8,368 bases of DNA from Deinococcales bacterium. GTDB lineage: Bacteria; Deinococcota; Deinococci; Deinococcales; Deinococcaceae. The stretch lies in assembly GCA_014378225.1 (NCBI GenBank), contig JACMOA010000304.1, positions 1 through 8,368 of the forward strand, read 5' to 3'. Below the pieces are notes generated by a model. That model was not told the origin of the DNA, made no database searches, and was given only the letters and a program-made list of their open reading frames with translations. Every line of letters begins with the position of its first letter. Position 1 is the stretch's first letter. A program made the position numbers and the translations under genes. Below, piece after piece: positions 1-8,368 of the stretch.

Positions 1-1506
1 CCTCAGCGCGGGCGCACAGGCCAGCCTCGAGAGCACGGCCCGCTGTGGTTCGCGCTCACTTAATGCGCCTTCTAAAATCAGCTCGAGCAGGTTGGGAATG
101 GACAGCCCAATAACCACCGCAGGCAAGGAACGAATGCGGACCAGTCCGGCTCCAAAGCCCTCGAGCGCCATGCCCCAGGCTGCAAATTCACCCTGACGCT
201 CGAGCAACCTCATAGTTTGCTCCGGGGTGAGTTGCAGCAATTCAGGGTGCTCGAGTTCCACGCTTTCGGATTCTTGAAACGCCGCCTCGAACTGCTCGTA
301 CAGGTTACGCTCGTGCGCGGCGTGAACGTCTATCAACCACAAATCTCCTTCACCTTCGGCCAGCAAATACAGGTCCCGGTAAATCGCCAGTGGCTCGAGG
401 TCGGGAAAGCTCGAGTGATTTTTTTGAATCATCGGCTCCACCGGGCGCAGTTCTGGTGCAGGTCTGGCTAGTGGATGCTCACTCAGCGCTGCTCGAATCG
501 TGGTTTCTAGAAGCGTTGCTAGCTCGGACATTCCCGCCAGCCCCACCTGTGCCTTGCTGGGGTGAACATTCGGGTTGACTCGCTCTGGTGGCAGCTCGAG
601 CGCCAATACACACACGGGCGCGTGACCGGGGGACAACAATTCTCCATAAGCCGATAAAACAGCCCGCTCGAGTTCGACTGGAAAGCTCACCGGACGCCTG
701 TTGACGCTGAGGTGCATTCGGTCTCGGTGGGGTCTGGAGAGTTCGGGACGAGAGATTACGCCGGAAAGAGAGGGGGGGGGTGAGGGGGAGATTGGGAGCG
801 AGGGAGTGGGGGGAATAAATCTTGATTTGCCTTCGCCAAGCGAGAGCATTCGGTTGCCCACCAGTGTGCCGTAGACCGTGACCACTGCGCCCCTCGAGTC
901 TGAAGGCGCGTGCTGGAGGCGGATTTCACCGTCGCACTCGAGTTTCCAATAAAGGTTGGGGTAGTGCAGGATGTAGCGGCCCACCAGAGCTACCACTTCG
1001 CGGTATTCTGCCGCCTGAGACGCTTGCATTTCGCGGCGGGCAGGGTAATGGGCAAACAGCTCGAGCACGCTGGCTTTGGTTCCGGCGGGGGCAGAAATTC
1101 GCTCGAGTGTTATTTCTTCGCCTTTTGCGGTGAGTTTTGCGGCTCCCAACTGCTTCTGGGGCCTGCTAATTAGCTCGAGGGTTCCCGCCAGCGCCATGCT
1201 CCACAGCGCCTCACCGCGAAACCCCAGTGTGGAGACGCGGTTCACATCCTCGAGCTTACTGGTCGCGTGCCGCTCTGGGGCCAGTTTCACCTCGTCAAAA
1301 GGAATTCCGGCCCCGTTGTCTCGCACGGTGATTTTTCCCAGTCCTCCGCGCTCGAGTTCTATGTCTATTTTCAAAGCTCCCGCGTCCAGGGCATTATCCA
1401 GCAGTTCCCGCACCACATCCAGCGGCCTCGAGATGACCTCACCCGCCGCAATCAGTCGGGTGATTTCGGGGGGTAGCACGCGGATGGCTCGAGCGGGTGG
1501 GGTCAT
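1..1506 (-). CDS. mutL: DNA mismatch repair protein MutL, C-terminus cut by window edge
   Basis: MutL couples mismatch recognition by MutS to strand incision. I translated 502 residues by hand from the ATG at 1506-1504 with no stop or frameshift; the frame is still open at base 1. GHKL ATPase motifs are clear: E34 and N38 in RELLDNALDAGA, D63-N-G-A-G67, RHATSK at about 79-84, and GFRGEAL at 95-101. The transducer domain has VNRRPV (usually VNGRPV) and NPNVHPSKAQV with K318. The C-terminal domain carries the endonuclease motif as D393-V-H-A-A-H-E399-R-N-L-Y-E404, fitting DxHA(x2)E(x4)E, so this is a nicking MutL rather than the E. coli type. The window ends at LACAPALR, probably the next metal-site motif; CPHGRP and FxR would lie outside. 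A low-complexity Pro/Ser stretch at residues about 231-248 sits in the transducer domain. There is no Shine-Dalgarno sequence. Identification is secure. Confidence 0.96.
   Translation of the reverse strand, partial: MTPPARAIRVLPPEITRLIAAGEVISRPLDVVRELLDNALDAGALKIDIELERGGLGKITVRDNGAGIPFDEVKLAPERHATSKLEDVNRVSTLGFRGEALWSMALAGTLELISRPQKQLGAAKLTAKGEEITLERISAPAGTKASVLELFAHYPARREMQASQAAEYREVVALVGRYILHYPNLYWKLECDGEIRLQHAPSDSRGAVVTVYGTLVGNRMLSLGEGKSRFIPPTPSLPISPSPPPSLSGVISRPELSRPHRDRMHLSVNRRPVSFPVELERAVLSAYGELLSPGHAPVCVLALELPPERVNPNVHPSKAQVGLAGMSELATLLETTIRAALSEHPLARPAPELRPVEPMIQKNHSSFPDLEPLAIYRDLYLLAEGEGDLWLIDVHAAHERNLYEQFEAAFQESESVELEHPELLQLTPEQTMRLLERQGEFAAWGMALEGFGAGLVRIRSLPAVVIGLSIPNLLELILEGALSEREPQRAVLSRLACAPALR
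772..813 (+). repeat. G-run array inside mutL (nine-G homopolymer, G-quadruplex potential)
   Basis: Five G runs follow one another on the plus strand, which is the mutL template strand: nine Gs (772-780), five (784-788), three (794-796), three (802-804) and six (808-813), with loops of 3 to 5 bases. This satisfies the usual four-run G-quadruplex rule. The coding strand reads Pro/Ser codons here, and the nine-G run is exactly three Pro codons in frame. The flanks are also purine-rich. Folding in the cell is inference. Confidence 0.75.
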
Positions 1507-1518
1507 TTTGTCAGGGAC

Positions 1519-1524
1519 ATAATA
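1519..1524 (-). promoter_or_regulatory. Candidate -10 element of mutL
   Basis: On the minus strand TATTAT lies 12 bases before the mutL ATG. Transcription would begin about 5 bases before the start codon, giving an almost leaderless mRNA, which agrees with the missing Shine-Dalgarno sequence. I found no convincing -35 at 16-18 bases, so this is a weak call. Confidence 0.35.
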
Positions 1525-1537
1525 GAGCGGCTGCCTG

Positions 1538-1598
1538 AAAACAGGATGAGCTACTTTCACTGCATTCAAGGCAAATTTTTGAATTTCCACCCTGTTTT
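1538..1598. repeat. Nested inverted repeats between regulator gene and mutL
   Basis: Outer arms AAAACAGG (1538-1545) and CCTGTTTT (1591-1598) enclose inner arms ATTCAA (1564-1569) and TTGAAT (1579-1584). CCTG-AAAA-CAGG at 1534-1545 can also fold on its own. This fills most of the 111-bp gap between two genes that both run leftward. It could be a terminator for the regulator gene or an operator for mutL; no T-run decides between them. Confidence 0.4.
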
Positions 1599-1617
1599 GA
1601 GACAAAGTTATAGACGC

Positions 1618-7159: not shown

Positions 7160-7249
7160 TATCATTATGATATCACTTTGATGTTGAACGATAGTTTCTG
7201 GAATCGCAACCGTCAAAGTGCGCTCGAGCCGACTGTGTTTCTATAACAC
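7160..7249 (+). promoter_or_regulatory. Dyad-rich regulatory region upstream of the SPFH operon
   Basis: Three symmetries lie in 90 bases. TATCAT-T-ATGATA is a perfect odd palindrome at 7160-7172. CACTTTGA (7174-7181) and TCAAAGTG (7213-7220) are inverted across 31 bases, extendable by a G-T and a G-C pair. GTGTT (7235-7239) and AACAC (7245-7249) flank and overlap TATAAC (7242-7247), a candidate -10 without a good -35. This suggests regulated transcription of the SPFH/RHH pair; the regulator is unknown. Confidence 0.4.
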
Positions 7250-7291
7250 GCTTCTCTGACACACTTTTCTCGAGCGCTCGAGGGAGGATTT

Positions 7292-8155
7292 ATGGAAACC
7301 CGTGAAAGTAAGATTGCGGCCTTGCCTGGTGGTTTGATGTTGTTAGTTCTGCTGGCCCTGGGAGCAGGTTTGGCGTACTGGATGTTCAACGGTGCGTTTG
7401 AGGGTATCCTGACCCTCATTTCGAGCGTCGTGCTTTCAGTTCTGTTGTTGGTATTGCTGGGCGGTCTGGTCATCGTTCAGCCCAATACCGCAGTGGTACT
7501 AACTCTGTTTGGGCGCTATGTAGGGACGCAACGCGAAAACGGTTGGTACTACATCAATCCACTCACCAACCGCAAAACCATCTCGCTGAGAATTCGCAAT
7601 TTCAACAGTGAGCGCCAGAAGGTCAACGACCACGACGGCAACCCCATCGAAATTGGCGCAGTTATCGTGTGGCGGGTAGTGGACAGCGCCAGAGCCACCT
7701 TTGATGTGGAACACTACGAGCAATTTGTGAGTATTCAGACTGAAACCGCCCTGCGTCACCTTGCCAGCCGCTATCCCTACGACGCGCCCGCCGACGAATT
7801 GAGCCTGCGCGGCAGTGCCGACGACCTGGCCAAAGAACTCGAGAACGACCTTTCAGGGCGACTGACCCACGCGGGGGTGGAAGTGCTCGAGGCAAGGCTG
7901 TCTCATCTGGCTTACGCCCCTGAAATCGCCGCCGCCATGTTACAGCGCCAGCAGGCCGGAGCGATTATTGCGGCCCGCGCCCAGATTGTGGCCGGAGCGG
8001 TGGGCATGGTTCAAATGGCCCTCGAGCAGCTCGAGCGCAACAATATCGTGCATCTGGACGACGAGCGCAAGGCTCAGATGGTGAGTAACCTTCTCGTCGT
8101 CCTCACCAGTGAGCGCGGTACTCAGCCGGTGGTGAACGCCGGAAGTCTTTACTAG
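7292..8155 (+). CDS. SPFH/Band-7 domain membrane protein
   Basis: A 287-residue protein. ATG 7292 follows GGGAGG (7282-7287) with 4 bases between. Two hydrophobic segments, about residues 11-32 and 37-62, form a membrane hairpin or two spans. The SPFH domain follows: VQPNTAVVLTLFGRYVGTQRENGWYYINPLTNRKTISLRIRNF (about 62-104) is the diagnostic start, then DGNPIEIGAVIVWRVVDSARATFDVEHYEQFV. A helical stretch (about 165-250) with Ala/Glu/Gln-rich repeats would drive oligomer formation, as in stomatin and flotillin relatives. Such proteins form large membrane rings or microdomains and often adjust proteases or membrane organisation. The gene is 8 bases upstream of a ribbon-helix-helix gene, an arrangement I recall from other bacteria, so the two are probably co-expressed. 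Its specific role is not known. Confidence 0.92.
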   Translation: METRESKIAALPGGLMLLVLLALGAGLAYWMFNGAFEGILTLISSVVLSVLLLVLLGGLVIVQPNTAVVLTLFGRYVGTQRENGWYYINPLTNRKTISLRIRNFNSERQKVNDHDGNPIEIGAVIVWRVVDSARATFDVEHYEQFVSIQTETALRHLASRYPYDAPADELSLRGSADDLAKELENDLSGRLTHAGVEVLEARLSHLAYAPEIAAAMLQRQQAGAIIAARAQIVAGAVGMVQMALEQLERNNIVHLDDERKAQMVSNLLVVLTSERGTQPVVNAGSLY

Positions 8156-8163
8156 GGGGCCTG

Positions 8164-8355
8164 ATGGCTTCCGAAGGGGATAAGGAAAAAGTTCGTAAAA
8201 ACTTTGCGCTTCGCATTTCACCCGATTTGTACGTGGCCCTCGAGCGCTGGGCTGCCGACGAACTTCGCAGTGTGAACTCACAAATTGAGTTTTTGTTGGC
8301 AGACGCGGTGAAGAAAGCTGGGCGAACTAAGCGCTCGAGCGAAGCCGAAGAATAG
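8164..8355 (+). CDS. Arc-like ribbon-helix-helix DNA-binding protein
   Basis: A 63-residue protein whose ATG lies 8 bases after the SPFH stop; the AGGGGG at 8154-8159 overlaps that stop and serves as ribosome site, so translation is probably coupled. KNFALRI (residues 12-18) would be the beta strand that enters the DNA major groove as a dimer. SPDLYVALERWAADEL and RSVNSQIEFLLADAVKKAG are the two helices, with the turn at RSVN. This is the Arc/MetJ fold. The basic and acidic tail TKRSSEAEE is short and probably flexible. The ADELRSVNSQIEFLL segment is, from memory, very conserved among partners of SPFH proteins. It could repress its own operon through the dyads upstream, or connect the nucleoid to the membrane ring; both are inference. 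No toxin gene is visible in the window. Confidence 0.88.
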   Translation: MASEGDKEKVRKNFALRISPDLYVALERWAADELRSVNSQIEFLLADAVKKAGRTKRSSEAEE

Positions 8356-8368
8356 ATGTTCCCGTGAA

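Follow-up and report, generated by a model that had tools for sequence, protein, structure and literature searches.

The hexameric palindrome CTCGAG is iterated at extreme density in contig JACMOA010000304.1 of a Deinococcales bacterium (8,368 nucleotides, analysed as a whole and referred to as the window) and throughout the genome assembly to which this contig belongs. We tentatively read it as a highly iterated palindrome under a DNA-level preference, likely a site that is bound or marked by a protein with a predicted footprint of ~20 bp. The window holds exactly 78 copies where its base composition predicts 2.54, so that the hand count in an earlier note on this DNA (about 78 against about two expected) proved accurate. 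As that note had proposed, we compared CTCGAG with the other palindromic hexamers of the window: the runner-up AGCGCT occurs 12 times, every other one at most four times, and the mirror word GAGCTC has no copy there. The source assembly (G000; 1,936,785 bases in 396 contigs, 58.93% complete) contains 14,690 CTCGAG (7.6/kb, about 7,600 per Mb) as opposed to two GAGCTC; the enrichment is thus genome-wide and not confined to this locus. From this assembly we sampled 98,942 unmasked bases, i.e. the window together with 20 of the 396 contigs (those reading N were excluded). Here, 879 copies (8.88/kb) stand against 11.4 expected under an order-2 Markov model with masked sites, which corresponds to a 77-fold excess. 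An order-4 model, also suggested in the earlier note, is blind in this case: applied to the window, it already predicts 71.9 of the 78 copies, because CTCGAG inflates its own pentamers. AGCGCT, the raw runner-up in G000 as well (81 occurrences), was considered as a second iterated palindrome and dismissed, with 43 found for 37 expected after masking of CTCGAG.

The signal acts on DNA, as had been claimed from the window, and is seen in all reading frames, in non-coding DNA and across the genome. In the sampled G000 genes of at least 150 codons we found 658 coding copies, compared to a mean of 104.5 under synonymous shuffling within genes. CTC GAG is the commonest frame (424 of the 658), but the remaining 234 sites fall in the other two frames, which do not encode Leu-Glu and for which ~13 would be expected. 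Coding and strictly non-coding sequences of the sample are about equally dense (9.0 and 8.6 sites per kb); for this reason the impression that copies are denser between genes is limited to the window, where 14 sites fall within the 977 bases between its seven modelled genes. If the pattern stemmed from a local repeat or from a preference for the codon pair of Leu-Glu, it would have no meaning at the DNA level; such an explanation would account for the lead of the CTC GAG frame. This explanation is refuted by the sites in the other frames, the non-coding density and the genome-wide count, and a like pattern in other families and on the plasmids of Allomeiothermus silvanus also argues against it; we give it hardly any credence.

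CTCGAG also shapes the encoded proteins, because Leu-Glu is over-represented 2.3-fold. In the sampled G000 genes 424 of 503 Leu-Glu dipeptides (84%) are spelled CTCGAG, and Leu-Glu occurs at 2.30 times the frequency expected by chance, compared with 0.89 times for Glu-Leu. Much the same is observed in another family, f5 (456 of 618 Leu-Glu written CTCGAG; 2.38-fold), while in G003, a relative of G000 that is not enriched, the word spells 7 of 105 Leu-Glu and the dipeptide stands at 0.95-fold. With codon use in the rest of these genes as the reference, CTC GAG is preferred by log-odds of 4.32 in G000, 4.37 in f5, 3.31 in genus g23 of family f2, 2.83 in G002, 1.77 in Meiothermus-like and 1.44 in Calidithermus/Allomeiothermus-like genomes; the values for G003 and for Thermus-like genomes are negative, at -0.95 and -0.74, respectively (genus labels ending in '-like' are inferred). 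Such a bias in protein sequence matters for protein comparison and for codon-based methods in Deinococcota.

We counted the word in 111 Deinococcota genomes and found the enrichment to be extreme in two uncultured families and weaker in Meiothermus/Calidithermus-like genomes. The earlier description of the host as a probable relative of Deinococcus needs qualification: G000 groups with the Thermus/Meiothermus order, where it belongs to an uncultured family (f1, comprising G000 to G003), and in the parts covered of three Deinococcus plasmids there is no enrichment. Within f1 we counted 21,868 copies in G001, 13,552 in G002 and 683 in G003; enrichment is absent from the latter, which counts as a loss within the clade. 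The four genomes of f5 contain 26,619-28,178 copies, the 18 genomes of the Meiothermus-like genus g11 3,329-11,982 and the 27 genomes of the Thermus-like genus g6 1,443-2,513. In all 27 Thermus-like genomes the octamer CCTCGAGG makes up 80-93% of the CTCGAG copies, evidence of a long-standing preference whose flanks differ between lineages. A sample of 80 kb from four of these genomes has 75 TCGA tetramers, 53 of which lie within the octamer. The same octamer is favoured in G002 (6,195 of 13,552 copies) and avoided genome-wide in G000 (55 of 14,690), where, given this avoidance, it is perhaps a restriction target. A palindromic extension to eight letters was rejected for G000: flank composition predicts 217.8 GCTCGAGC and 47.8 CCTCGAGG, compared to 191 and 5 found.

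Plasmids and phages were evaluated with the masked order-2 model over the stretches read (40-50 kb of each Deinococcus plasmid). Two resident plasmids of Allomeiothermus silvanus are enriched (54 observed for 12.9 expected and 51 for 18.1), as is pTT27 of T. thermophilus (55 for 18.3), in which 51 of the 55 copies are CCTCGAGG. No enrichment was found in the parts read of the plasmids of D. deserti (7 for 6.7), D. radiodurans (8 for 12.7) and D. gobiensis (7 for 16.1), or in those of the Thermus phages P23-45 (6 for 12.8) and YS40 (0 for 2.2). Outside Deinococcota, in 40 genomes, CTCGAG reached ~1 copy per kb at most. A three-site scan of viral contigs counted 120 stretches among the matches listed, some of them high-GC or low-complexity DNA. 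Two of these listed matches stand out. A viral stretch of 2.9 kb (L408) with 13 CTCGAG, 16 AGCGCT and no GAGCTC may derive from a virus infecting a G000-type host, and another of 9.7 kb and 64% GC (L432) with 57 CTCGAG and no GAGCTC, in which other palindromes are not avoided, is possibly another, unrelated case.

The sites are not regularly spaced (the coefficient of variation is 0.96 in both the G000 data and the null), and in the two densest groups they exclude each other at less than about 20 bp. When occupancy was permuted within genes and overlapping possibilities were removed, 37 pairs were found 6-20 bp apart in G000 compared to 60.9 expected, and 22 pairs 6-17 bp apart in f5 compared to 37.1. 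Their positions turn over. Among 20 comparable G000 sites in mutS, seven are common to G000 and G001 and 13 differ, with both genes dense in sites; what is kept is density, not position. In 12 of these 13 the counterpart is changed by at least three letters. Most one-letter neighbours of CTCGAG are undepleted in G000 (the minimum is CGCGAG with 0.74 of expectation), and the C-to-T products are enriched (TTCGAG 80 for 29, CTTGAG 99 for 46), as from ordinary decay. CTTGAG, the decay product of a 5-methylcytosine at the central CpG, shows no excess over TTCGAG, which argues against this modification, and the near-miss counts likewise disfavour a Vsr-like repair of T:G near-misses.

Two genomic features co-vary with the enrichment in the 57 sampled genomes that offer at least 9 kb of unmasked sequence (contigs reading N dropped); neither correlation is corrected for kinship. 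One is the abundance of the other 63 palindromic hexamers, with a Spearman coefficient of -0.82, of -0.75 without f1 and f5, and of -0.56 within f2 (n = 22). In G000 these hexamers stand at 0.31 of expectation; as a class, almost all other 6-bp palindromes are depleted in G000, G007, G011, G015 and G019 (0.24-0.51 of the order-2 expectation). G015 has the lowest total (0.24), yet its observed/expected ratio (O/E) for CTCGAG is 31 and thus below that of G000. The other is MutS1, scored as present for a match at E 1e-60 or better, which holds for 72 of the 111 genomes. An order-2 O/E of at least 5 is reached by 24 of 38 genomes with MutS1 (here including G062, which has a fragment) and by one of 19 without (G011); within f1, G000, G001 and G002 have both MutS1 and the enrichment and G003 has neither. 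The Thermus-like genomes, with MutS1 present and mainly the octamer form, are a counter-example. At the same threshold MutS1 is absent from 39 of the 111 genomes (with a fragment in G062, and G011 being a draft), among them G003, G009, G052, G041 and other genomes of f2 and of genus g9 in family f3, and at a loose cut-off a MutS-family match was obtained in all 20 genomes searched.

A methyltransferase matching the word was sought with four Pfam families (PF07669, PF01555 and PF00145 in 111 genomes each, PF02086 in 31). Among the loci compared, these families yielded no family or subfamily common to the enriched genomes; type I HsdM and MT-A70 enzymes were not searched for. None of the four was matched in G000, whose assembly is 59% complete; for Dam-type PF02086, the two Thermus-like genomes searched as well as G002, G003 and G070 were likewise without a match. 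For PF01555, 18 of the 30 best matches fetched fall into one cluster (13 Meiothermus-like from g11, two from g28, two from g29 and one Thermus-like), none being from f1 or f5. PF00145 (two fetched loci with no readable enzyme were left out) gave a cluster of nine Meiothermus-like enzymes and a second common to G001, G007, G011 and G062 only, the rest being unrelated. The most promising group, A2 adenine methyltransferases of the Eco57I/BseCI type, passes 500 bits in 14 of the 18 Meiothermus-like genomes and in nine of f2 (23 in total), and in none of f1 or f5; it is also widespread outside. Thermus-like genomes carry conserved PF07669 open reading frames of about 400-430 aa, which, going by length, presumably resemble M.TaqI (TCGA).

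We tentatively favour a binding or marking site, which best accommodates both the exclusion within ~20 bp and a constant density despite changing positions. In this model a DNA-level preference would keep CTCGAG at about one copy per 110-130 bases genome-wide, and a sequence-specific protein would bind or mark it. The preference could be weak natural selection; if the log-odds of 4.3 are taken as selection, 2Ns would be roughly 4 per site. The benefit would probably lie in covering the genome with bound or marked sites and not in particular positions. A bolder version, possible but doubtful, has CTCGAG as the phylum-wide landing code of a Deinococcota chromosome protein, with footprint-spaced sites at about every 110 bases, a pressure that rewrites proteins and dialects in the flanks (CCTCGAGG in Thermus). 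Several observations weigh against a binding or marking site. We identified no protein that binds CTCGAG. G002 lacks the short-range exclusion, and in f2 g23 and Meiothermus/Calidithermus-like genomes it is weak. To some extent it may reflect hairpin avoidance, which fails to cover 12-20 bp because other GC-rich inverted repeats are depleted at 9-11 bp only. The seven shared mutS positions are somewhat above random turnover, an excess that conservation of Leu-Glu may explain. The coding O/E of the hexamer is below 1 in all four Thermus-like genomes sampled. A plain binding site does not predict the correlations with palindrome avoidance and MutS1; and MutS1 itself has no match in the strongly enriched G011 (a draft of 460 contigs), while in f3 the pooled coding O/E is 1.48 in g16, which has MutS1, and 1.81 in g9, which lacks it (genomes of <2.5 kb or <800 codons were dropped).

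Methylation-guided mismatch repair is a close rival, itself rather doubtful. Following Elhai's proposal for HIP1, a mark on CTCGAG or its core TCGA would guide repair that fixes site-creating mutations, and the abundance would be a by-product of MutS/MutL. The association with MutS1, both across the sample and within f1, speaks for this explanation, as do the matching methyltransferases that accompany HIP1 and alternate HIPs (PMC4390886) and the orphan CTCGAG methyltransferases reported in Nocardia (PMC4752239). However, that association is uncorrected for kinship, in f3 the genus with MutS1 is no more enriched than the one without, and the four methyltransferase families searched revealed no common enzyme, other families not having been searched for. 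Moreover, the repair model reaches its plateau at about 1 site per kb (PMC4390886), compared to 8.9 here, and does not predict the exclusion below 20 bp.

Neither a binding site nor methylation-guided repair explains the correlation with palindrome avoidance, for which restriction systems are a possible shared cause. In an account built on these, lineages rich in type II enzymes lose almost all other palindromes, and the one that is untargeted or protected fills a role open to any palindrome or marks self DNA. The Spearman coefficient of -0.82, the depletion of the other hexamers in G000, where GAGCTC occurs twice in 1.94 Mb, and the lack of enrichment in the parts read of the two Thermus phages agree with this. 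We nevertheless consider it unlikely: to our knowledge there is no role that needs an arbitrary palindrome, avoidance alone predicts an O/E near 1 for the spared word and not 77, and G015, lowest in other palindromes, stays below G000. Quite unlikely, in our view, is a neutral mutation or conversion bias towards CTCGAG devoid of function. A conversion bias matching the log-odds of 4.3 would give equal occupancy and could also enrich Leu-Glu, but to produce the exclusion below 20 bp it would have to sense neighbouring sites; moreover, the one-letter near-misses TTCGAG and CTTGAG are not consumed, and the two phages, as far as read, show no enrichment.

The window is a mismatch-repair locus with mutL and mutS1 on the same strand (Table 1). 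In mutS, 16 of the sites read as CTC GAG and 10 lie in the other two frames. MutL contains DVHAAHERNLYE, which we take to be close to the endonuclease motif DQHA(X)2E(X)4E. Two genes hold no CTCGAG at all despite dense surroundings, the HU gene and a small Gly-rich lipoprotein-like gene; the latter may be a recent arrival.

Table 1. CTCGAG sites and selected features of the window.
Feature	Position	Strand	Remarks
78 CTCGAG sites	26..8339		exact count; first bases 26, 82, 160, 199, 250, 394, 410, 595, 667, 893, 937, 1060, 1102, 1174, 1249, 1351, 1427, 1488, 1933, 1954, 1969, 2065, 2110, 2118, 2215, 2742, 2764, 2908, 2981, 3011, 3197, 3254, 3292, 3315, 3439, 3517, 3649, 3800, 3825, 3885, 3918, 3979, 4012, 4110, 4221, 4297, 4617, 4668, 4818, 4965, 5008, 5040, 5067, 5130, 5218, 5448, 5562, 5617, 5637, 5763, 5782, 5818, 5905, 6336, 6380, 6435, 6519, 6691, 7151, 7223, 7269, 7277, 7838, 7886, 8021, 8030, 8239, 8334
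mutL, truncated by contig end	1..1605	-	NCBIfam TIGR00585 380 bits; 18 CTCGAG sites
Gly-rich lipoprotein-like gene	2355..2720		start approximate
mutS (MutS1)	3843..6398	-	NCBIfam TIGR01070 902 bits; Pfam MutS domains I-V; 26 sites
HU gene	6736..7098		start approximate
HU-SPFH intergenic gap	7099..7291		4 sites in 193 bases; example of dense non-coding sites

Several known classes of short repeated words can be set against CTCGAG. DNA uptake sequences of Neisseria and Pasteurellaceae are likewise highly over-represented; they are longer, non-palindromic and occur about once per kb. We know of no sequence-specific uptake in Thermus. CTCGAG is palindromic and its flanks in G000 have no palindromic octamer extension, so it does not qualify as an uptake sequence. 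As a perfect palindrome it is identical on both strands, which excludes polar chromosome signals such as Chi and KOPS, and its coding density (9.0/kb) excludes REP/BIME elements, which are extragenic, longer and imperfectly palindromic. GATC, which directs mismatch repair through Dam and MutH, is likewise a dense palindrome with a link to MutS/MutL; it shows no enrichment of the kind described here for CTCGAG. In Nocardia the same word is reported to cluster between the genes for DnaA and DNA polymerase III, in correlation with an orphan methyltransferase gene (PMC4752239), as opposed to whole-genome saturation in G000. Among the matches listed in the open-access literature we found no earlier report of an iteration of CTCGAG or CCTCGAGG in Deinococcota; most subscription journals were outside the scope of this search.

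The cultured relatives Thermus and Meiothermus are transformable. The nearest likeness is to HIP1 (GCGATCGC) and the alternate HIPs of cyanobacteria, short palindromes iterated through the genomes of a clade, with alternate forms and losses and an unsettled function (PMC4390886). HIP1 proper is excluded by the word itself and by the host, which falls in the Thermus/Meiothermus order and not in the cyanobacteria. Three features of the class are observed, namely a genome-wide excess, copies within genes in several frames as well as in non-coding DNA, and a clade-wide occurrence with losses and variants, and the earlier suggestion of an independent HIP1-like case is supported, for a different word and phylum. 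CTCGAG differs from HIP1 in being a hexamer core, with the octamer form restricted to Thermus-like genomes and, in part, G002; in its density (about 7,600 per Mb of assembly, compared to 300-2,700 per Mb for HIP1; PMC4390886); and in that no matching methyltransferase was found in the four Pfam families searched. We also observed the exclusion below ~20 bp and the correlation with palindrome avoidance, neither of which was looked for in HIP1 in the available part of PMC4390886. The links to MutS1 and to palindrome avoidance offer new handles on iterated palindromes. HIP1 has so far been a cyanobacterial curiosity, and CTCGAG adds a second case from an unrelated phylum that is denser and graded and, with its cultured relatives and a clear loss, therefore makes it possible to test what protein or repair process depends on an iterated palindrome.

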